Source: a virus. From it: a stretch of 64,000 nt of DNA. This document shows, one piece after another, positions 13,723 through 60,210 of this stretch (position 1 is its first letter; each line of letters opens with the position of its first letter). The position numbers and the translations under genes were made by a program. The notes under the pieces are model-generated. The model was not told where the DNA came from and ran no database searches. It was given only the letters and a program-made list of their open reading frames with translations. Location: the IMG/VR virus record IMGVR_UViG_3300047472_000309, positions 186,001 to 250,000 of that record; one strand, written 5' to 3'.

Positions 13723-14223
13723 TTACCCCACACGAACTGCTCGGGTCCGTAAATGCTCCCGAGCCTTCATGGTTAGGACACCACACAAGTTGGCACCTTT
13801 CCACTCATAGGGATTTCCAATCCGGGGGTCGTCTTCATTCAGACCCACCCCGTAGAGGGTATCACGTTCGCTGGCTTCAACCAGGATGTCGTCGCCCGTA
13901 TCCAGCAGCCATTGGCGCTCCTGCGGGTTCTGACTGTACTTCTCAATCATGCCAATGAGAATAAACTGCTCTCGCTTGGCCACCCATTCTGCATCGACGT
14001 AACCGCGCACCTTGCGACCTAAGACTTTCTGCGCTTGCGGGTTATCGGTCTTCAAAATGAGCTCCGCTACATCTCGATCCTTAAAGAGCATCGCCTTGCA
14101 GTACATCATGAACTGCTCGAGCGACGAGAACGAAATGCCCTTTACTTTGAAATGACAGAGGTAGTGGTTGGACATGAAATCACGACGAGTGTAGAACGCC
14201 GTAACATTCCCCCATCGCCGCAT
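13723..14223 (-). CDS. NADAR family protein (YbiA-like)
   Basis: A 166-residue protein with the NADAR pattern: DFMSNHY near the N-terminus, a SLEQFMMYCKAMLF segment, PQAQKVLGRKVRG, an RQWLLDTGDDILVEAS stretch, then YGVGL, PYEWKGANLCGVLTM and a basic C-terminal helix. NADAR enzymes cleave N-glycosidic bonds; some reverse guanine ADP-ribosylation laid down by DarT1-type toxins, others process riboflavin intermediates. In a phage the former would be a counter-defence. AAGGAG lies 5 bases before the ATG. Family membership is strong; the substrate is inference. Confidence 0.9.
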   Translation of the reverse strand: MRRWGNVTAFYTRRDFMSNHYLCHFKVKGISFSSLEQFMMYCKAMLFKDRDVAELILKTDNPQAQKVLGRKVRGYVDAEWVAKREQFILIGMIEKYSQNPQERQWLLDTGDDILVEASERDTLYGVGLNEDDPRIGNPYEWKGANLCGVLTMKAREHLRTRAVRVG

Positions 14224-14790: not shown

Positions 14791-14818
14791 TCTTAACCTC
14801 AAATCAAACAAAAAAAAA

Positions 14819-14836
14819 GAGGGATCGAAATCCCTC
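14819..14836 (-). terminator. Rho-independent terminator after the adhesin gene
   Basis: A 7-base-pair stem (GAGGGAT with ATCCCTC) followed on the minus strand by nine T residues. It is the proximal half of a double terminator. Confidence 0.85.
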
Positions 14837-14882: not shown

Positions 14883-17210
14883 TTAGAACTGGAAGCCAGC
14901 CGAACCCACTGCTGCCACGTCGCCGCGGCTGCTGGTGGACACGCCTGCCTTGATGACCCAGTGGTTGTCACCGGTCACCGTCGAGACGCCGATTGCCAGG
15001 CCTTGTTGGCCATGGTAGTTCGACACCGCAGCGGAAACCATCGACTTGCCTGCTTGCGTCGGTTGCGGCAGACCAGCAATCGCCAGCACCGAAGCGAGGC
15101 CACCGTAGGTGTCCTTCTTGTAGCTGTCGAACTGGTTCTGCAGGTTCGCCACCGCACGATCGGTGTAAGCGTACGACTGTTGCTGCGCGTAGTTCACTTG
15201 ACCCACGTTCGCTGCGTCAGTCGGCGCCGTACCCGCCGCCACGTTGGTGATCTGACGTTCGTTACCGGCGGAACCCACCGACACCGAGTTGTCGCGATCC
15301 GCCACCGAGTTCGCACCCAGCGCCACCGAGTTGTTCGACTGCACCTTCGCGGTTGCGCCGACTTGGCCCTTGTTCACATCAGCTTGGAGCTGGGTGATGG
15401 ACTGGGTGTTCCCGGTGATCTGGGTTTGCAGTCCGGCTTCTGCCGTCGTAGCGCGCGTCGTTTCGTTGTCGATCTTCGTGTTCAGACCTGCTTCCGCAGT
15501 CTTGGCACGATTCGATTCCGAATCGATGTTGGTTTGCAGTTGGCCTTCAGCCGCTTGGGCACGGGTCGATTCTGCACCGACTTGTTTGTCGGTGTAGGAC
15601 TTCGCCGAGTTCAGCGTCTTGCTGGCCGTCGCGTTGGTGTACGCAGCGGACGTTGCGACCGCGCCGGTGTAAGCGGCAGCGGCCACGGCATTAGCGTGCG
15701 AGTTTGCCGACGACAGCGTAGCCGCGCTCGACGCATCCGTGTAGGCTTCCGACGTAGCAACACCCTTCGCGACTTGCGTGTCGGTGTAACCCTTGGCCGA
15801 CTTAAGCGTAGCAGCATCGCCCGCTTGTTGCGCCGTTTGCAGGTCGTGCGCGACGTTGTTGGTGTAGTCGAACGACGTGTCGATCGCCGTTTGCGTGGCG
15901 GTTGCAACTTCAGCGTGGGTCGCGCTGTTCGCTTGCAGGTCCGAGATCGCCGAGCTGTTTTGCTTGGACTGATTCAGCGCCGTGTTCGCGGTCGACTGGG
16001 CGTGCTGTGCGTCGCCTTCGGCCTTACCTGCCAGACCGAGTGCTGCACCTCCGACTACCAGGGCGGCATCTGCCGTACCTTGTGCATGCGAAGCGGCTTT
16101 ACCCGCTGCGTCTGCCGTCGCTTGCGCCTTGTTCACGCCGGTTTGCAGACCTGCTTCTGCGGTGGTGGCGCGGGTGGTTTCCGTGCTGATCGCCGTTGCA
16201 TTGGCGTCCGCTTTGGCGTTGGCCGTGTTAGCCGTGGACTGAGCAGCAGCTGCTGCTTTGCCCGCTGCTTTGGCGTCCTGATCCGCATTCACAGCCAGTG
16301 CACCGGCTGCGACACCCACACCCAGCGCCAGGTCAGCAGTGCCTTGGGCGTTCGCAGCAGCCTTACCGGCTGCTGCTGCAGCGGAACCCGCTGCCGTGGC
16401 TTTGGCATCTGCCGTAGCAGCGGCTTGACCAGCGGCAGTCGCAGTCGATTGTGCAACGGCTGCTGCACCTGCCGCGCCTTCTGCGACAGCTTCAGCGTGA
16501 CCTGCCGTGATCGCAGCGCCCGTTGCCGTGATGGCTGCGCCTGCTGCAACGCCTTCAGCTGTCTGAGCGGTTGCTGCAGCACCCTGGGCGATCGACTTCG
16601 CTTGCGCCGAGGTGTCGACTGCGGCTTGCGAGTTGGCGAGCGCTTGATTGGCCGTACCCTGAGCGGCATTCACGCCGTTCTGGAGACCAGCTTCGGCTGC
16701 CGTGGCGCGGCTCGTTTCACCTGCCGTTGCGGCAGCCGCAGTCGACGCGTTGGTGTTGACTTGCTTTTGCAGTCCGGCTTCTGCGCCTTGTGCGCGAGCT
16801 GCTTCAGCGGCGACTTGCGTCGTCGTGTAAGCGTTCGCACCGTTCACGGCATTGTTGAGGTCTTGATGCGTGGCGCTGTTCACCTGCAGTGCGGCGATCG
16901 CGCCGCCTTGCTGACTGACTTGACCTTGCAGTTGCGTGATGTTCGTCGTGTTCGCCGCGACGTTCGTGTTGGTCGAGTTCAGTTGGGCGCTGGTAGCCAG
17001 ACCCGTGACCGTACCGGTGACTGTGCTGCCATTGGAGAGCGAAGTGCTCACCGTGGTGCCGTTGATGTTCACGCCGGTAACCGAAGCGCCGTCAGCACCG
17101 TTCTTACCACAGCTGACGAACAGACCACAGTCCGATGCGTGAGCACCGATCGATGCCGAAGCGAGCAAAGCGATGAGGAGGGCATTCTTTTTAAGGACGT
17201 TCTTTTTCAT
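14883..17210 (-). CDS. Trimeric autotransporter adhesin (YadA-like) encoded by a phage
   Basis: A 775-residue protein with a Sec signal peptide ([19 protein letters not shown], cleavage near residue 25), then a long Ala-rich stalk of heptad-like repeats in which variants of [10 protein letters not shown] recur. Next comes a neck motif ([20 protein letters not shown], then [12 protein letters not shown]), and a C-terminal YadA-type beta-barrel anchor over about the last 70 residues ([12 protein letters not shown], then [16 protein letters not shown]). Cellular members are outer-membrane adhesins. The anchor wording is typical of Burkholderia or Ralstonia. It has its own early-type promoter at 17272 and double terminator, so it forms a single-gene transcription unit. 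Likely host-derived; it may remodel the infected cell surface. Confidence 0.95.
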
Positions 17211-17271
17211 GATGCGCTATTTTCCATAAAGGTAAGTGGTAACGAAGTTGGGTTTGTTTCCAACTCACCTT

Positions 17272-17287
17272 TGTTATATAGGTCTGA
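17272..17287 (-). promoter_or_regulatory. phiKZ-type early promoter (copy B)
   Basis: The minus strand reads TCAGACCTATATAACA, differing from copy A by one base. It lies 62 bases upstream of the adhesin start and 3 bases after the stop of the gene at 17290. Confidence 0.75.
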
Positions 17288-17289
17288 GA

Positions 17290-17577
17290 TTATCTTGGAT
17301 CGTCCTTGCTCAGCGGCGATCTGGGAAGCGTATGAAGCACGCGCGTATTGCCCCGGACGCGTAGATTCACAATGCTCCGATACTGTCGGTAGCAGTCTGC
17401 CCAATGCCTAATCGCTTTGCGGTCCCACCAGCGCTCCTTACCTTCTACCACTACGGGTAGGGGAAAGGGCACGGGTGCCTTCTCTGGTCGCCTCAAATAG
17501 AGCTCGATCTTCTCCCGGCTCTTCTTGGTAAAACGACACACGTCCCCGATGGTCATCAACCTGACCGGTGTGCTCAC
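17290..17577 (-). CDS. Small DNA-binding protein (MerR/AlpA-like wHTH)
   Basis: A 95-residue protein with MTIGDVCRFTKKSREKIELY, then PFPLPVVVEGKERWWDRKAI and RHWAD. This is the winged-helix layout of AlpA or excisionase-type proteins: a helix-turn-helix, then a PxP-type wing and a RW-DRxxI-xW helix. The start is probably the GTG at 17577, but ATG at residue 8 is possible. The basic C-terminal tail is Arg-rich. Likely a transcriptional regulator; its target is unknown, though the adhesin promoter lies just after it. Confidence 0.7.
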   Translation of the reverse strand: MSTPVRLMTIGDVCRFTKKSREKIELYLRRPEKAPVPFPLPVVVEGKERWWDRKAIRHWADCYRQYRSIVNLRVRGNTRVLHTLPRSPLSKDDPR

Positions 17578-45405: not shown

Positions 45406-45421
45406 AGTAATATAGGGCTAA
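45406..45421 (-). promoter_or_regulatory. phiKZ-type early promoter (copy D)
   Basis: The minus strand reads TTAGCCCTATATTACT, containing the exact phiKZ early core TATATTAC. It lies about 35 bases upstream of GTG 45371. TAGCAAT follows downstream, as at copy C. Confidence 0.8.
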
Positions 45422-48756: not shown

Positions 48757-48772
48757 TGTTATATAGGGCTGA
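48757..48772 (-). promoter_or_regulatory. phiKZ-type early promoter (copy C)
   Basis: The minus strand reads TCAGCCCTATATAACA, identical to copy A. It lies 70 bases upstream of the small early gene starting at 48687. Confidence 0.75.
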
Positions 48773-51759: not shown

Positions 51760-53307
51760 TTAGTCTATCGTGAATGCCGCAGCAGGCGGGGTGAAGTTTG
51801 CCGAGTAACGAGCAATCTTACTAAGGCGTAGCTCATCGATCCGGCCACTGAACGGCAGGTACGTGCTACCATTCAGGAAGCTACCGATCCACAACGCATA
51901 GTTGTTGCTACCAAACGTCGCGGAGCTCGTAACAGACTGAACCAATACCCCATCAACAAAACACGACCAGGTGTTGCCAGAGCGCACAAACGCAAAGTGC
52001 TGCCACGTTCCAACTTTGGTCTTCGACGAGTCCGGTGTGCCGACGATGACAGTGCCATCGGGACCCAAGATACGAACCAATCCACTAGTGGACTGGATGT
52101 ACTGATACCCGGCCTGCGCCGAAGTACCTTTGGACAGGATCATGCCGTTCTGGGTTATGTTGGTGTGCCATGCCCAGAATTCGATCGTGAGATCGCCCGT
52201 AAAGCTCAGATCCCCTGGATCGGTCACTGCAAGATAACCGGAACCCGACGGGAAATAGCCCGCCCCAAACATGCCGACGCTGCCTGCTGCCGCTGCGCCG
52301 TTGTTCGTCACCGTATGGCTGAGAACTTCCGTGTAGCCGGTATTGCCTGCATTATCGAAATGCATCAACAGCTTCGTACTGGCGGCAGGTCCTTGACCGG
52401 CAGCGTTGGCAAAGCCCGGCAGATTCAAGCTAGTGACCGCCGCGCTCAGCGCCACTGTGTTCATCAGGTAGACGTCGGTACCCGGCTTATACACGTAACT
52501 GTTTGCATCAGCCACCAGGTGAAGCTTGGTGGTGCCTGCAGCAACGGGACCGTCTACCACATCCATCGGATCAAGGGCCAAGCCATACTTCGTGTTGACC
52601 TGCGCGATCAGGGCACGGATCGTCGTGGCCGAGGCGATCGTACCGAGCAACCAGGTGTTATTGGCGCCACCTAGAAACGCGTTCGCAATATCCGTGCGAT
52701 TGTAATACAGCTTGTACGTGCCCGAGTACTGCTGCAGCAACGTCCCGATCGGCGCCACCGTCACGTAGGTGTTACAGTTCAGCTTCGAACTATCTACAAC
52801 GGGCGCGCTCACCGATAACTGCGACTGGGAGATCGTCTGCTTCGCGTCAGCCTGAATCAATGCCCACAAGCCCGTCAAACCACCTGTCTTGACCTGGGCC
52901 AGTTTCTTCTGCATGACGAATGCAGAGATTTGACGCAACTGACCTTTGGTTGACGACTTCTGCATCACAAAAGCTGACACCTGACGCAGCGCGCCACTAC
53001 TGGACAGCTTCGTCCACGTCACAGCAGGCATTGCCCGGAACCGGGCCGTCAGCGCATCCTGCGTCCATTGCAAGGCTGCCACGCGCCGAATTGACACTGC
53101 GGGATAATCTTGCGACCATTGCAGGGCTGTCACCTTACGCAACGTAACTGGGGTGGGTGAGCTGAACCACTGCACCGCCTGCATCTGACGGAAATACGCG
53201 TTGATGTTTTGTGTCGTCCACACGACAGGCGCGGCTTGACGAACCTGGGCACTGCTGCTCGTTCCTTGCCACACCAGTGGAGCGAAGTAGCGAATTGTTG
53301 TCGTCAT
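51760..53307 (-). CDS. Array gene: eight 17-residue repeats, module A, LamG (515 aa)
   Basis: Residues 5-140 are eight tandem 17-residue repeats. Each starts with a hydrophobic residue then Arg, and holds A or P at position 6 and W or M at position 9 (for example IRRVAALQWTQDALTAR). Residues about 145-300 form module A (GLWALIQADAKQTISQSQLS, YKLYYNRTDIANAF). Residues about 310-515 are LamG-like (TKLLMHFDNAGNTG, LTIEFWAWHTNITQNG, DELRLSKIARYSANFTPP). Followed by an AT-rich gap with a possible TATG promoter near 51738. Confidence 0.8.
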   Translation of the reverse strand: MTTTIRYFAPLVWQGTSSSAQVRQAAPVVWTTQNINAYFRQMQAVQWFSSPTPVTLRKVTALQWSQDYPAVSIRRVAALQWTQDALTARFRAMPAVTWTKLSSSGALRQVSAFVMQKSSTKGQLRQISAFVMQKKLAQVKTGGLTGLWALIQADAKQTISQSQLSVSAPVVDSSKLNCNTYVTVAPIGTLLQQYSGTYKLYYNRTDIANAFLGGANNTWLLGTIASATTIRALIAQVNTKYGLALDPMDVVDGPVAAGTTKLHLVADANSYVYKPGTDVYLMNTVALSAAVTSLNLPGFANAAGQGPAASTKLLMHFDNAGNTGYTEVLSHTVTNNGAAAAGSVGMFGAGYFPSGSGYLAVTDPGDLSFTGDLTIEFWAWHTNITQNGMILSKGTSAQAGYQYIQSTSGLVRILGPDGTVIVGTPDSSKTKVGTWQHFAFVRSGNTWSCFVDGVLVQSVTSSATFGSNNYALWIGSFLNGSTYLPFSGRIDELRLSKIARYSANFTPPAAAFTID

Positions 53308-53317
53308 TCACTCCTCC

Positions 53318-54391
53318 TTAGTTAGTGGGCGTCAGTACGAACTGAGTCTGATTAATCTTCGTGCCCGTCCAGCTCGCACCATCCGGTGCTTTTGTCTGCC
53401 AAGGCAACTTCTGGTTTAGTACCAATCCATTGCCATTGGCAAACTGACCAAGCGATGAGACGTTACTGGAAGCGTCCGTAAAGGTCGCTGCAATCTTGGC
53501 TGGACCGGCCGCACTGGGTTGAAATGAGAGCGTCGGTTGAACTGCCAGGACTTTCTGGCCAGTATCATTAACCGTGGCGAGCATCGTCACCGCCAGGGAC
53601 TGGTTATCTACCGGAGACTGCGCATACGGACTGATGACAGGCGGGTTCTGGTTAGCCGTATTGAGTACCGTCACCAGATCGGCTGCGCCGTTGGGTGTCC
53701 ATTCCGAGCCAGAGACGGCCGCCGCGCGCGACGCTTTGGCGCGAATCGGCCCCAGTCGACCCGGCGTCGATGCATCTACATCCAGGAAGTAGAAATCGCG
53801 ATAGCCGCGCGCGTAATTCGCGCTGCCGGTCGACGCACCCCCAAAGGTAATGTAGCCGGTGCTGGCAAATACAGCGGACGTCACTGTACCGGAATTGATC
53901 AGAATGCCGTTGCCGTATACCTGGAACGTCAGCGCGACGCGATCGATAAAGACCTCGATGTAGATCTCACCACCCACTCCCACCATCCCTGCTGCGATCA
54001 GATGTGACTCATCGAGCAGCGAAGTCCAGCTACCGAAGGACGTGTTGCTGGACACGATGACAACGTGGCACGCCCCCACCGTGTTATTCACGATCAACTT
54101 CGTGCGGAAACCAAACCAATACTGCGTTGCCCCACTCCAGTCTTGCACGGCTGCGGTGGGCACGAAAAGCGCCCCACATTGTCCGGACGAATTGGCAGCG
54201 TTCGACAGAAAGCCATCGGCCGTCACGGAGAAGATGTTGCTTGGGGTACTGTTATTAACGTAGGTGAGCGGCTGACCGACGTTGCCAGTGTACTGGTTAT
54301 AGATCGTGTTGCCGTTATAACTCGATCCAGCAGCACTCAGTGTCATCCCCACTGGCGCATTCTCAAAATGCCACAAATCGTGAAGGGCCAT
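53318..54391 (-). CDS. Array gene: module B (357 aa)
   Basis: Full-length module B: MALHDLWHFENAPVGMTLS, a lectin-like half with GYRDFYFLDVDASTPGRLGP, then VLNTANQNPPVISPYAQSPV and a closing domain ending KAPDGASWTGTKINQTQFVL. Four other genes share this order. No LamG part. Probably a tail-structure subunit in the same assembly as the neighbours. Confidence 0.75.
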   Translation of the reverse strand: MALHDLWHFENAPVGMTLSAAGSSYNGNTIYNQYTGNVGQPLTYVNNSTPSNIFSVTADGFLSNAANSSGQCGALFVPTAAVQDWSGATQYWFGFRTKLIVNNTVGACHVVIVSSNTSFGSWTSLLDESHLIAAGMVGVGGEIYIEVFIDRVALTFQVYGNGILINSGTVTSAVFASTGYITFGGASTGSANYARGYRDFYFLDVDASTPGRLGPIRAKASRAAAVSGSEWTPNGAADLVTVLNTANQNPPVISPYAQSPVDNQSLAVTMLATVNDTGQKVLAVQPTLSFQPSAAGPAKIAATFTDASSNVSSLGQFANGNGLVLNQKLPWQTKAPDGASWTGTKINQTQFVLTPTN

Positions 54392-54406
54392 GTTCGTTAC
54401 TCTCTA

Positions 54407-55441
54407 TTACGGGGTGAGGGTCGCGACCATCGCCGCCAGCGACTGAGGCGTGAAGGACGTCCCATCCGGTGCTTTCTCGAGCACAAACGCGTTCTGATTC
54501 CAGTACATTTGTGCGCCGTTCGGATAGGTAATCTGTTTACCATTAACAGACTGGCCATTATACGCAACACTTGCCTGTGGTGCGAAGATGTAGCTTGGCG
54601 TGCGCTGACCCGACACGTCCGCTTTTGCAGCGAGAATACTTTCGCCTGCAATCAGGCCCGCATTCGAGAGCTTGAACTGCAGCGGGTCCATGCTCGCGGG
54701 CTCCGTCACCAGCGGTGCATTTTGCGTCGGCGTCGTTATACCCAGCGCCGTCGACAGATCAGCAAGCGCCGTGCTGCTATCGCTGGAGGTCCAGTTCGGT
54801 GCCGTCACGCTGGCCAAAGCAGCTGGCGTAACATCAATCGGACCAAGACGATTGCACTGTGTGGCGTCTTGCGTGTCGTCTAGGAAATAGACGTCGCGAA
54901 TCTGGAACACGTAGCCCGCTGCGCCGTTATTCCCCCACACCAGGTTACACTTGTTATCCGCCGACACAAACGCATTGAAGTCGAAGAACACCGAGGGCTG
55001 CGCCACACCATCGATCCAGACGACGATCTGCGTATTCGCCCGGTCGATCATGATTTCGACGTACTGGTTGGTATTGAGCGCGAGTTGCGTATTGCTCACC
55101 AACGTTTGTTTGGTGCCCGCTGTATTCGTCAAGAACAACACCGGTGTGGCGGTCGCGATATTATTGATGCTGACCCGAAAACCGATGAAACTGCGCCGGG
55201 TCGTAAAATCACTGAGCGCCTGATACGGATGATTCGCATTGGGCGAATAGGTCCCGTAATTCGTATTCGGATAGGGGTTAGTATCCGTGCGGAAATACAG
55301 CCAGCCACCGCTCGAATAGATTGTCCCATACTGGCTGTAAACACCGGTGATGGTGAAGTCACCGCGCAAGAACTGCATCACCGTCGTATAGGTGGTGTAA
55401 GCAGGCAGATTGTCGAAGCCCCAAAAATCTCGGATAGCCAT
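54407..55441 (-). CDS. Array gene: module B (344 aa)
   Basis: Module B paralogue: MAIRDFWGFDNLPAYTTYTT, IRDVYFLDDTQDATQCNRLG, then TALGITTPTQNAPLVTEP and a KAPDGTSFTPQSLAAMVAT end. No LamG part. The start is preceded by GAG-rich sequence. Confidence 0.75.
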   Translation of the reverse strand: MAIRDFWGFDNLPAYTTYTTVMQFLRGDFTITGVYSQYGTIYSSGGWLYFRTDTNPYPNTNYGTYSPNANHPYQALSDFTTRRSFIGFRVSINNIATATPVLFLTNTAGTKQTLVSNTQLALNTNQYVEIMIDRANTQIVVWIDGVAQPSVFFDFNAFVSADNKCNLVWGNNGAAGYVFQIRDVYFLDDTQDATQCNRLGPIDVTPAALASVTAPNWTSSDSSTALADLSTALGITTPTQNAPLVTEPASMDPLQFKLSNAGLIAGESILAAKADVSGQRTPSYIFAPQASVAYNGQSVNGKQITYPNGAQMYWNQNAFVLEKAPDGTSFTPQSLAAMVATLTP

Positions 55442-55475
55442 CTTTAAACTCTCTTGATGATAACGAACATAAAAA

Positions 55476-55507
55476 CCCCGACACCCTCCCTGAGGAGAGC
55501 GTCAGGG
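55476..55507 (-). terminator. Hairpin between two module B genes
   Basis: A 7-base outer stem with inner pairing, followed on the minus strand by TTTTTATGTTCG, another possible TATG element. The stop at 55522 lies 15 bases upstream. Confidence 0.6.
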
Positions 55508-55521
55508 CTCTCGTGCCGTTA

Positions 55522-56598
55522 CTAGGTGGTCGACACGGGCTGGACGATCAACTGCGTCGCATTAAAGCGCGCATCACTCCACGCATTGCCACTCGGGTCC
55601 GTCGTTTGCGGACCCGATAGATCCCGACCGTAATCCATCGTCGTATCTGTGAAACTATAGGTAGGCAGATTCTTCGTGGCTGACCCGTTATTCAGTTGTG
55701 CCGTAACTTGCGCGGCCGTCGCCACGCTCGCCGCCATCTTGTACTGCACCGCAATCATGCCTGCACCCGCAGGCGCGGTCGACTGATACGTCACCGTGAT
55801 CGGGTCGTTGGTCGGGGCATTGGACTGCGTCGGCGCAGGTGCCGGGGCTGCGCTGTAGCCGGTCTGAAAATCCAGCAAGGCGGACTTACCGTCGCTTGAT
55901 GAGTAGTTCGGGGCGCTCACAGCCGCGTACTGGGCGACGGCCGACTGAATCGGACCCAGCCGCGTATTGGGTAGGGTGGCATCGGCATCGACGAAGTAGA
56001 AGTCCTGCAACGAGAAGTTACAGGCGTTCGTGGTCACTGCGTTCGAGCCAAATACCAGATACGTGAAGCCAGTCGCCAGCGCCGCCTTATCGATGATCTT
56101 CAACCCATCGACCCAGGCCGAGTACTGACTATTGGCGATGTCAAGCATCACTTCCACGTACTGTGTAACGTTCACCGTCCGGCTGAGCTGTGTCTCGTTC
56201 ACCAGTGAGGTCGGCACCGCTGTCGCCGAGGAAGCCGTCCCAAATACCGACGAAGTGCCCGGTGCGGGAATCGCTGAGCTCCAGGTGCGAAAACCAAGGT
56301 AAGCTTTGGTCGCGCCGCTTTGCAGCAAAGGAATATCGGCAAGTGCCACGACCAGTGCCTGAGCCTGCGAAGTGCTATTGCCAAATCCCAATCCACCACC
56401 GCGATAAGTGCCACCCGACGCACCTGCCACCACGCTATTGATCACGCAGTTTGACGCACCAGCGCGCAGAATCAGCGTACCCGGATTACCGGTGAGCTGG
56501 TTATACGCATTGTTCGGTGTGTACGCAGCGATCGCAGTCAGCGGGACGTTGGATGCGTTGGCAATGTGATCGTACGTCCACAAGGCTCGCAAAGTCAT
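55522..56598 (-). CDS. Array gene: module B (358 aa)
   Basis: Module B paralogue: MTLRALWTYDHIANASNVPL, QYVEVMLDIANSQYSAWVDG, LQDFYFVDADATLPNTRLGP, then APNYSSSDGKSALLDFQTGY and a closing domain with LSGPQTTDPSGNAWS. It is the un-inserted reference for the permuted LamG gene at 58442. Confidence 0.8.
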   Translation of the reverse strand: MTLRALWTYDHIANASNVPLTAIAAYTPNNAYNQLTGNPGTLILRAGASNCVINSVVAGASGGTYRGGGLGFGNSTSQAQALVVALADIPLLQSGATKAYLGFRTWSSAIPAPGTSSVFGTASSATAVPTSLVNETQLSRTVNVTQYVEVMLDIANSQYSAWVDGLKIIDKAALATGFTYLVFGSNAVTTNACNFSLQDFYFVDADATLPNTRLGPIQSAVAQYAAVSAPNYSSSDGKSALLDFQTGYSAAPAPAPTQSNAPTNDPITVTYQSTAPAGAGMIAVQYKMAASVATAAQVTAQLNNGSATKNLPTYSFTDTTMDYGRDLSGPQTTDPSGNAWSDARFNATQLIVQPVSTT

Positions 56599-56680
56599 GT
56601 TAATCTCTCTTCAAAGAAACTGGGTCTGGAAGCCATTTAGTAAAAAAATAACTTCCAGAATACACATCATTAGCCGCCTT

Positions 56681-58354
56681 TTAGTCGAGCACAAAGGGTG
56701 CCGCAGGCGGGGTAAAGTTCGCGGTGTAGCGCGCGATGTTACTCACCCGCAGTTCATCGATGTAGCCTGGGAACTGCGAAGCCGTGTTGTACTGGTTGCC
56801 GCCAATCGTCCACGTACTACCCGATAGTCCAAAGGTCAGTGCCGACGTCAGAGTACCTTGGGCGACCCCGCCGATGTAACCCGTGTAGACACCATTCGCG
56901 TACACCACAGCACAGTGCTGCCATTTGTTTAGCGTAAAGGCTGCAGCCGAGGCCAGTGACTTCCAGCCCGAGCCGTCGGTCAGGTAGATACCCAGTCCCT
57001 TGTCGCTTTGCTGACCAATGGAGGTTTGTGTCGTCGTCGTGTTGGCGGTCTTCGAACTGAGAATGGTTGTGTCGCCCAGGGCTGCGGTCCGATAGAGCCA
57101 GAACTCAACCGTCATGGCGTTACCAAGCACCATCGTCGAATCGGAGGCAACCGAGAGGTTACCTGTGGTACCCGAGTTATACGACTTGCTCCCCATGGCC
57201 ACTTGACCCGTGGTAAGCACGCCATTACCGTTCGACGTCCAGGTCCGACCTGTGTCATCGACAAAGCTTTCCATGTGCATCAAGAGCACGGTGTTCAGGG
57301 TCTTCGGCGTGAGGATCGCGCTCGTCGCATTGATCTTTGCCGGAGTCCACAACCCACCATCCGGTGCCTTACGCTGCACGCCCCACTTCTGGTTATAGAG
57401 GTTCGTGTTCGGTGACACCACAATTTTACCCGCATCCAGCGTGTTCGATGCCTGACTAAACGACACATCGATCGAATTCGACGCTGAATCACCGATCAGG
57501 GTAAGTTGTGGCTGCACGGCGATGATGGGGGTATTCGCCGACACACCGGTGCTCATGTTCGCAGTCACGGGTTGATTATTCGCCGGGGCTGACGCACTAG
57601 GCGTCGTGACCGGCGGGTTCTGCAAGGCAGTCGTGATTGCTGTCGGCAAATCCGCCGCACTATTGAGCGTCCAGCCCGCTCCAGCGATATTCGAAAGCGC
57701 GGCGGGCGAGGAGCGAATCGGTCCCAATCGTACCGTATCCGTGCTGTCGAAATCCAGGAAGTAGAAGTCCCGATAACCTCGTGCAGCATTCGCCGTACCT
57801 GCCGTACCGCCCGTACCAAATACACCATAGCCGGTTGCGGGAAACGCGCTGGCGCCATACGCCGCCGAGCGCACGAGATTACCATTCACATACAACCAGT
57901 ACGTGAATGTCGCTGAGTCCACGATGAGCTCCACATAGAGCTCAGTATTGGCGGGGGCCACCAGATCTGCTTCGTTGATCCAGATCAGCAGCGTGGCGGT
58001 CGCCCAGCCTGCGGTTGTAATGAAGACTCGGCCAGGCGTGGAGCCTGTGACGGCCTGAGTCGACTTGGTGCGAAAACCAATGCCCCACTTGGTGGCCCCC
58101 GACATGTTCAGCGCCTGCGCCAGCTTGAACCAAATCATGCTCCCGTTGCCGCTGGAGTTATTCGTCGAAGTGGCAAAGCCGTTTGCATCCACTGCAAGCG
58201 GGCTGCTTGCGTAGGTGTACGTGCAGCCTGGATTGCCCGTATAGTAGTTGTAAACGTTGCTCGGACCCGTTGTCGAGGTGAGGTCAGTCGTGCCGGTGAG
58301 CAAACTTGTACCCACTGGCGCATTATCAAACGACCACAAGTCATGGATTGCCAT
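56681..58354 (-). CDS. Array gene: module B plus C-terminal LamG (557 aa)
   Basis: Residues 1 to about 345 form module B (MAIHDLWSFDNAPVGTSLLT, GYRDFYFLDFDSTDTVRLGP, KAPDGGLWTPAKINATS). A LamG domain follows at about 352-557 (TVLLMHMESFVDDTGR, MTVEFWLYRTAALGDT, KWQHCAVVYANGVYTGYIGG, DELRVSNIARYTANFTPPAA). GGAG precedes the ATG. It shows that LamG can be appended to module B. Confidence 0.8.
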   Translation of the reverse strand: MAIHDLWSFDNAPVGTSLLTGTTDLTSTTGPSNVYNYYTGNPGCTYTYASSPLAVDANGFATSTNNSSGNGSMIWFKLAQALNMSGATKWGIGFRTKSTQAVTGSTPGRVFITTAGWATATLLIWINEADLVAPANTELYVELIVDSATFTYWLYVNGNLVRSAAYGASAFPATGYGVFGTGGTAGTANAARGYRDFYFLDFDSTDTVRLGPIRSSPAALSNIAGAGWTLNSAADLPTAITTALQNPPVTTPSASAPANNQPVTANMSTGVSANTPIIAVQPQLTLIGDSASNSIDVSFSQASNTLDAGKIVVSPNTNLYNQKWGVQRKAPDGGLWTPAKINATSAILTPKTLNTVLLMHMESFVDDTGRTWTSNGNGVLTTGQVAMGSKSYNSGTTGNLSVASDSTMVLGNAMTVEFWLYRTAALGDTTILSSKTANTTTTQTSIGQQSDKGLGIYLTDGSGWKSLASAAAFTLNKWQHCAVVYANGVYTGYIGGVAQGTLTSALTFGLSGSTWTIGGNQYNTASQFPGYIDELRVSNIARYTANFTPPAAPFVLD

Positions 58355-58396
58355 AACCTACTCCAATGTAATTCGATGACATAAGCGGACACCCAA

Positions 58397-58422
58397 TCTC
58401 CTCTCCTCACCTAGGAGAAGAG
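58397..58422 (-). terminator. Hairpin after the permuted array gene
   Basis: A CTCCT/AGGAG-type stem with some outer pairing, about 20 bases after the stop at 58442. CTTATGTCAT follows on the minus strand. Confidence 0.5.
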
Positions 58423-58441
58423 ACCGAATGCCCTCTCATGT

Positions 58442-60166
58442 TTAGTTGATGTTCGCCGCTGTGGTCGACTGCGGTTGCAACACCAGGTTAGTCGCCGAAA
58501 TGGTACTGCTAGTCCAGGCGTTGCCATTCGGATCGGTCGTCTGAATGCCCGCCAGATCTCGTGTGTACTGCGCTGCGGTATCGCGAAACTGATACGTCGC
58601 CAGTGCCTTGTTGGTTGCGCCTTCTTGGAGCGAAGCCAACAGGTTTGTCGCAAACGGTACCTGCGCGGCGAGCTTATACTGCATCGCGAGAACCTTCTGT
58701 CCGGCCGGAACGCTCGCAGAGAAGTTCACCGTCATGGGTTGATTATCCGCGCCGTTTTGGACGAACGGTGTAATAGCAGGTGTGGCCGCGTAAGCCGTTT
58801 GCAAAGCCGACACTGTGTTACCACTCGAATCTGCCACGTACGTCGAGCCATTAAGCACGCTCGCGTCCAGATGCATCAGGAGCATTGTGTTGGCATCCGT
58901 CGTGAACGGCCCAGTCGGCGGAGTAAAGCCTGTCGTGTAGCGTGCCACATTCGAGACCCGGAACTCATCAATGTAACCTTGCCAGGGACTGGTTAGATTG
59001 TTATTATTGCCGAGAATCAGGTTCGCCGTATTGTTACCGAATGTCGCGTTGCTCGCCACGTTACCCAACGCCACCCCGTTCTGGTAAATGGTCCAGGTGC
59101 CTTGGTAGCGGACCAGCGCCAGATGGAACCACTGGTTGACCACCGGGTTACCTGTCACACTGAGCGCGGGCGTGCCCGAACTCTGGTCGGTAAGGAGCTG
59201 CCACACGCCTGAGACATATTGCAAACGCCCCCACGGTGAAGCGCCTGAGTCCTTACCCAGAAAACCTGCCGACTGCCCAGCATTGGTGCTCATGGCCCAG
59301 CACTCGTACGTCATGTCACCCGTTACCGTGCGGTACTGCACGGCATCAGGAATCACCACTGCGCCGCTGGCAGCACCATTCGTCGTAAATGAAGCGGGGC
59401 CAAACTTCGCCTGAGCATTCGAAATCGCCGATGCGCCATTCAGCGTACCGATAAAGTTTCCGTAGTTCGGCGCTTGCACGCCGCTGACAAGCGGGCTAAG
59501 CGGCGTGCTCGTGATCGGACCGAGACGACCATTGGGCTTGGTGGCGTCCACATCCAAGAAGTAGAAGTCTCGGAAGGCCTGTCCGAACGAGCCGCTAAAG
59601 GTTTGACCACTGTAGACGAAGTGAGTGAAACCGGTTGGCAGCGTCCCACTGGTAGTCGGCAGGCCATTGACGTAAGTCTGATACGTGTGGTTAGCGTTAT
59701 CCAGGAAAACTTCGACGTACTGTGCACCTGCTACGCCCGCTGTCACGCGATTAAGCTGGGTTTCGTTGATAAGTGAAACAATGTTAGCGCCTGAACTGCC
59801 GAGCGCGCCCGACGCGGAAGACGGCAACACACCGAAACAATTACAACCGCTTGGTGCAAGACCAGTGGCGTAGGTACGGAAGCCCAACCAGGCCTGCGTA
59901 GCGCCACCCTGAAACAGACCAGAATCCGCCAGCGAAATCACATAACCCGCATACAGCGTGGAGTTACTGACCGCCAAACTCAGCCAACCCGGTGAAGGCG
60001 TGGTGCTGATGTTAGCGCCATTGGAGCTGTTGCCGGTCATGATCGCGCCAGGCGCGCCGTACTGAGTCTGAAGGCTATTCGGCGTGGCATAGGTAGTGCC
60101 GACCGTCAACGCAAACGCAGCCGTGAGCTGAACATGGTCAAACGAGATTAATGCGCGGAGCGTCAT
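58442..60166 (-). CDS. Array gene: module B with an apparently permuted LamG insertion (574 aa)
   Basis: Module B runs to residue 235 (QAPNY). It resumes at about 446 (DSSGNTVSALQTAYAATPA), where the un-inserted paralogue reads APNYSSSDGKSALLDFQTG. Between them lies a LamG body (236-424: MTYECWAMSTNAGQSAG, NQWFHLALVRYQGTWTIYQN, DEFRVSNVARYTTGFTPPTG) that lacks the usual opening. The opening (NTMLLMHLDASVLNG, then VADSSGN) instead comes at 427-451, after the body. ATG 60166 has AGAGGG upstream and matches its paralogue. Confidence 0.8.
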   Translation of the reverse strand: MTLRALISFDHVQLTAAFALTVGTTYATPNSLQTQYGAPGAIMTGNSSNGANISTTPSPGWLSLAVSNSTLYAGYVISLADSGLFQGGATQAWLGFRTYATGLAPSGCNCFGVLPSSASGALGSSGANIVSLINETQLNRVTAGVAGAQYVEVFLDNANHTYQTYVNGLPTTSGTLPTGFTHFVYSGQTFSGSFGQAFRDFYFLDVDATKPNGRLGPITSTPLSPLVSGVQAPNYGNFIGTLNGASAISNAQAKFGPASFTTNGAASGAVVIPDAVQYRTVTGDMTYECWAMSTNAGQSAGFLGKDSGASPWGRLQYVSGVWQLLTDQSSGTPALSVTGNPVVNQWFHLALVRYQGTWTIYQNGVALGNVASNATFGNNTANLILGNNNNLTSPWQGYIDEFRVSNVARYTTGFTPPTGPFTTDANTMLLMHLDASVLNGSTYVADSSGNTVSALQTAYAATPAITPFVQNGADNQPMTVNFSASVPAGQKVLAMQYKLAAQVPFATNLLASLQEGATNKALATYQFRDTAAQYTRDLAGIQTTDPNGNAWTSSTISATNLVLQPQSTTAANIN

Positions 60167-60210
60167 GATTCCCTCTGTCAAAAAGCTTAATGCATATTCC
60201 AGGAAAGCCT

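Follow-up and report, generated by a model that had tools for sequence, protein, structure and literature searches.

The window, a 64,000-nucleotide stretch of a 310,654-bp viral record, contains an open reading frame of 775 codons with an ATG start and no internal stop, and its product almost certainly has the genuine architecture of a type Vc trimeric autotransporter adhesin (TAA). The gene, its domains and its flanking signals are as follows.

17273..17287, minus strand: early-type phage promoter TCAGACCTATATAAC, from motif search, recurrence in relatives and published consensus
17246..17265, minus strand: 5' leader hairpin AGTTGG...CCAACT, just past the predicted start site
14883..17210, minus strand: TAA coding sequence, 775 aa, from translation, Pfam, PDB-sequence matches and homologues
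17136..17210, minus strand: Sec-type signal peptide, residues 1-25, read from the translation and comparable in all homologues
16986..17135, minus strand: N-terminal tip, residues 26-75, with cysteines C28 and C34 and a G-x-DGASVTGV segment
15366..16985, minus strand: Ala-rich coiled-coil stalk, residues 76-615, about 540 residues
15195..15350, minus strand: YadA-type head repeat and neck, residues 621-672, from PDB-sequence matches and relatives
14886..15068, minus strand: YadA_anchor (PF03895), residues 715-775, from Pfam, with a C-terminal aromatic residue
14838..14872, minus strand: first terminator hairpin, from folding
14810..14836, minus strand: second terminator hairpin (GAGGGATTTCGATCCCTC) and T-tract, from folding, with its stem at 14836-14819

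The features by which we tested membership in the TAA family, namely a YadA_anchor domain, a Sec signal peptide, and head/neck and coiled-coil stalk modules, were all found. The anchor matched its Pfam profile with an E-value of 6.1e-15 and a score of 55.5 bits (cut-off 22.7), covering the full profile (60/60) and reaching the last residue. When the protein was compared with PDB sequences using phmmer, the anchor matched Hia (3EMO and 2GR7; E-values down to 1e-14 overall), and pieces of the neck and head matched SadA, BpaC, BpaA and YadA. The signal peptide, identified by eye, has a basic n-region, a hydrophobic core and an AHA-type cleavage site, and the YadA_stalk domain scored above its cut-off in two relatives (L008 and L014). 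An AlphaFold2 model of the last 239 residues gave, in order, a long helix, head strands, a helix and four terminal strands; its confidence was low (pLDDT 55), as is to be expected when a trimer is modelled as a monomer. An 816-aa open reading frame on the opposite strand (14961-17411) was considered as a real gene and rejected for want of support, since the domain matches and conservation lie in the minus-strand frame; it is an overlapping shadow of the adhesin DNA rather than a competing gene. In a homology search of phages and a plasmid collection, the tip matched only its counterpart in phage FLC9, and neither a ligand nor a domain of known function was identified for it. Collagen-like GPQGP/GKDG repeats occupy the position of the tip in most relatives, and the length of the stalk varies among relatives through module-sized insertions and deletions.

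The record that carries this gene also encodes a chimallin, a PhuZ-like tubulin, and phiKZ-type nvRNAP subunits. The chimallin, of 636 aa, matched PDB chimallins with E-values down to 8.6e-39 and is 26% identical to phiKZ gp54; the tubulin scored above the cut-off for TubZ_C_2 and just below that for Tubulin; and the nvRNAP subunits are homologues of phiKZ gp71/73 and gp74. A tyrosine integrase was looked for in the phage and was not found. Based on this gene content, the phage is probably of the nucleus-forming (Chimalliviridae) type, which builds a protein "nucleus", and is probably virulent. Among other genes of the window, a NADAR-domain protein (PF08719, E 2e-40) encoded downstream of the adhesin at 13723-14223 on the minus strand has relatives in seven compared loci and possibly serves in counter-defence. 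At 51760-60181, also on the minus strand, several proteins with a common C-terminal region matching phrog_3545, 701, 18802 and 13163 form a paralogous structural family (virion/baseplate PHROGs).

The same gene is present in other phages. In FLC9, an isolated jumbo phage of Burkholderia glumae, the orthologue gp240 lies between the same neighbours, with gene order preserved. The adhesin also occurs on nine other large phage contigs, namely six IMG/VR contigs of 172-315 kb, two more, and one contig of 245 kb. A chimeric assembly of phage and host DNA is ruled out, because the isolate and independent metagenome contigs hold the gene in the same neighbourhood. The anchor was found once per record in nine records searched and once in the window's record, and the signal peptide and anchor are retained in all 11 homologues. 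Chimallin is encoded by 10 of the 11 TAA-bearing phages, the window's included. The exception (L014, G007; 217.6 kb) gave no chimallin or RNAP match; it may represent another kind of jumbo phage, or its record may be incomplete. A collagen domain scores strongly in L014 (E 7e-14). The 245-kb contig (L029, JARLJL010000015.1), which holds both chimallin and a TAA with a long collagen-like array, is a jumbo-phage contig apparently binned into a Sulfuriferula genome bin.

The adhesin forms its own transcription unit, with a phage motif upstream and a terminator downstream. A generic sigma-70 scan upstream of the gene returned no promoter, and a host sigma-70 promoter was accordingly set aside in favor of the phage-specific motif. 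Across the 310,654-bp record, the pattern TYARMCCTATATWAC matches the coding strand at 11 sites, 7 of them exactly, and the opposite strand nowhere; a reversed-pattern control gave no sites at all. The pattern was drawn partly from sites in the window, and the independent evidence for it is this strand bias together with its recurrence in relatives, where FLC9, L003 and L004 each have eight or nine copies on one strand. Other sites precede chimallin, the PhuZ-like tubulin operon, the nvRNAP subunits and an exported SLT transglycosylase, among others, and the motif is absent from the structural block of the window, at approximately 51-61 kb. As expected of a phiKZ/OBP-type early (vRNAP) promoter, it is conserved and AT-rich and stands in front of operons presumed to be early. 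It closely resembles the proposed early promoters of OBP and N1M2 (TTTCARRYAKATATTAT), and also resembles those of 201phi2-1 and phiKZ (TATATTAC) (PMC7058600). Comparable motifs have proved to be early promoters in every case with profiled transcripts (PMC7598289). Given this likeness and a promoter common to chimallin, PhuZ and nvRNAP, the adhesin is probably expressed early.

Three further copies of the promoter in the window, at 1433-1447, 45407-45421 and 48758-48772, precede open reading frames of 554, 279 and 92 aa without assigned function. Elsewhere in the record, early-type promoters precede two exported-looking products, the SLT lytic transglycosylase mentioned above, which has a signal peptide (L021, record positions 164200-166000) and a small protein starting MIKHLLAAALLVSVSSTALA (L023, record positions 185400-187700). 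Early remodelling of the envelope by the phage may thus involve more than the adhesin.

Eight phages retain the leader hairpin and show compensatory changes in it, with 97.9% of cells paired and two pairs changed on both sides, although in the window alone its stability is not unusual (z -0.95). Judged against mononucleotide shuffles only, such a hairpin is strong after the chimallin and adhesin promoters and weaker after those of PhuZ and a few others; it is absent after several units, and we do not claim it as general to early-type transcripts. Downstream, the double hairpin and T-run have a minimum free energy of -35.4 kcal/mol (z -5.3), and this double terminator is kept in close relatives and swapped for equivalents in others. 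A preliminary description of the window had proposed, in a probably virulent phage, a complete YadA-type adhesin with a signal peptide, Ala-rich stalk, neck and outer-membrane anchor, transcribed as a separate unit between an early-type promoter and a double terminator, and the results above bear out each of these points.

The exposed part of the adhesin has diversified. Among close relatives (the window, L003, L004 and L005), flanking proteins are mostly 93-99% identical, whereas the TAAs align only in part, at 80-89%, and their N-terminal DNA falls to about 69% identity. The passenger is thus far more variable than its neighbors, and the small genes immediately adjoining the TAA are also variable. 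Purifying selection is nevertheless evident throughout the TAA, with dN/dS medians of 0.21-0.33 that are loosest in the tip. The history of the gene also differs from that of chimallin. The chimallin of L004 is 99% identical to that of the window, but its anchor is distinct (dS 0.91); the chimallin of L007 is 30% identical, but its anchor is closer (dS 0.57). In an unrooted tree resting on only about 160 residues, the anchor of the window groups with that of L007, with L004 outside (support 99/98). Because this tree conflicts with the divergence of chimallin, the simplest account is that distant jumbo phages have exchanged the gene or its 3' end. A 100/98 branch of the same tree separates nine phage TAAs from the rest. 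The nearest cellular relatives are Burkholderiaceae TAAs, with 57-62% identity in the neck and anchor, and for this reason the gene likely originated in Burkholderiaceae-type hosts. Such genes had initially been described as cellular virulence factors; this association holds for the family, but we saw no sign here of a role in disease.

Export of a TAA requires working host Sec and BAM machinery, and expression early in infection fits display for this reason. We propose that the injected virion RNA polymerase transcribes the gene alongside chimallin, PhuZ and nvRNAP, as its promoter suggests. By the mechanism of the family, the signal peptide would direct export while host Sec and BAM still function, and the protein would trimerize through its C-terminal anchor, leaving the stalk and tip exposed on the outer surface of the infected cell. 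Neither a signal peptide nor a membrane anchor would serve a fibre put together in the cytoplasm. This architecture is therefore naturally explained by display on the infected cell, which we consider probable. The last step is the least certain: a long, variable brush would most likely recoat the cell, mask or occupy putative phage receptors, and exclude superinfecting rivals. For a phage that is apparently virulent, a surface protein that is long, variable, exchanged and made early makes most sense as a barrier against rival phages, and the idea that jumbo phages modify the surface against competitors is an accepted one (PMC7824862). We put the likelihood that superinfection exclusion is the main benefit of the displayed TAA at a little under even.

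The main rival to exclusion is aggregation, in which early display would stick infected cells together or to uninfected neighbors, so that progeny immediately encounter new hosts in soil or on plant surfaces. Adhesion and autoaggregation are the commonest activities of the family, and what TAAs are known to do lies mainly there rather than in phage exclusion. The collagen-like tips and Ala-rich stalks of the relatives, and the plant-associated host of FLC9, B. glumae, are in keeping with such a role. On the other hand, aggregation does not specially require early rather than late expression, and no adhesion domain of known specificity was identified. Any exposed function, aggregation included, would account for the diversification and exchange, which do not discriminate. 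We regard aggregation as the main benefit as unlikely.

Alternatively, the adhesin could help the host to persist through a pseudolysogenic or slowed infection, by attachment, biofilm formation or protection from grazers. A precedent would be the Eib proteins, immunoglobulin-binding TAAs of E. coli that are borne on prophages and benefit lysogens. The phage carries a PhuZ-like tubulin, and pseudolysogeny and host modification have been discussed for jumbo phages (PMC7824862), but PhuZ works in the lytic growth of phiKZ-like phages (PMC13282480), the search for a tyrosine integrase was negative, and FLC9 is not known to enter a carrier state. This explanation seems improbable. A use in the virion, also raised in the preliminary description, is likewise disfavored. 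A tail or head fibre could be built from TAA-like trimeric modules, since collagen and coiled-coil modules are common to tail fibres and PHROGs assigns related proteins with YadA anchors to its tail category. However, a fibre assembled in the cytoplasm would have no use for the signal peptide and anchor, which every homologue keeps; the gene has its own early-type promoter, the same as that of chimallin and nvRNAP; and no structural gene lies among its annotated neighbors. The protein thus does not fit the profile of a virion tail fibre, for which one would expect no signal peptide, a place among structural genes and late expression, and we consider a fibre role quite improbable. That the gene is a recently acquired host gene without function for the phage, as its Burkholderiaceae relatives might suggest, is very improbable given its presence in at least 11 phages under purifying selection, its phage promoter and retained terminator, and the absence of the passenger from the plasmid collection.

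Early outer-membrane display, most likely for superinfection exclusion, is our best overall explanation, and we hold it with somewhat less than even confidence. A broader proposal, which we advance only tentatively, is that nucleus-forming jumbo phages recombine and diversify an early outer-membrane adhesin as a protein surface barrier against rivals, within a wider, mislabelled class of phage TAAs with members in unrelated phages too. Discussion of how jumbo phages modify the cell surface has centred mainly on Ter systems and on sugar chemistry in the form of LPS clusters. In the open-access literature searched, we found no description of a TAA for nucleus-forming jumbo phages, and the word "adhesin" was absent from the jumbo-phage reviews and comparative survey searched. 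The TAA family and phage-carried TAAs are already known; the case of a nucleus-forming jumbo phage with an early-type promoter appears, on that search, to be new. An adhesin under a chimallin-class promoter implies that these phages probably rebuild the exterior of the host while building a nucleus inside it. Because FLC9 is an isolate with a laboratory host, the role of the adhesin is directly testable. The finding also bears on the annotation of phages that are candidates for biocontrol. It further suggests that certain phage families labelled "tail adhesin" in fact reside in the outer membrane of the infected cell.

Several known systems resemble the adhesin in part. The Burkholderiaceae TAAs, for example those of Burkholderia pyrrocinia plasmid pBPJTT (WP_258285391), B. 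cenocepacia, B. stagnalis and Trinickia fusca, are its closest cellular counterparts and have the same coiled-coil stalk, YadA head and neck, and YadA anchor, for which BpaC (7O23), Hia (3EMO) and SadA (2YO0) provide structures for comparison. Unlike them, the window's adhesin belongs to a jumbo phage of virulent type and is preceded by an early-type phage promoter, and its tip had no match in the plasmid collection. FLC9 gp240 (BDD79759, LC667451) is an orthologue that matches the window's adhesin in gene order, promoter, terminator and architecture, but is 68-69% identical, has module-sized insertions and deletions in its stalk, and is annotated as "hypothetical protein". An earlier YadA-like open reading frame in a lytic Burkholderia phage, ORF86 of a B. 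pseudomallei phage, was named in passing for its "YadA-like domain" as a clue to horizontal transfer (PMC9351088), and is likened here by description rather than by sequence. The preliminary description considered a complete TAA in a probably virulent phage unusual; the occurrence stands, but is less singular than supposed, as the unrelated phages Pantoea phage AAM22 (gp20; L128:3116-4279), Pseudomonas phage 15b (L129:3131-4279) and Vibrio phage RYC (VCPH_00147; L130:3110-4345) carry compact TAAs. These have an N-terminal signal sequence (by eye), a coiled coil and a YadA_anchor, read in 15b from sequence only; they differ in their length of about 380-410 aa, their lack of a recognised head or neck, their very divergent anchor and their smaller phage genomes. 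The AAM22 protein belongs to phrog_17426 ("adhesin"), which PHROGs assigns to the category tail; its gene adjoins a dUTPase on the strand opposite to the structural genes, and that of RYC adjoins a UvrD-type helicase. Finally, the Eib proteins are likewise phage-carried TAAs displayed on the bacterial surface, but they belong to temperate phages and lysogenic conversion, whereas the phage described here is apparently virulent and places its adhesin under an early-type promoter.
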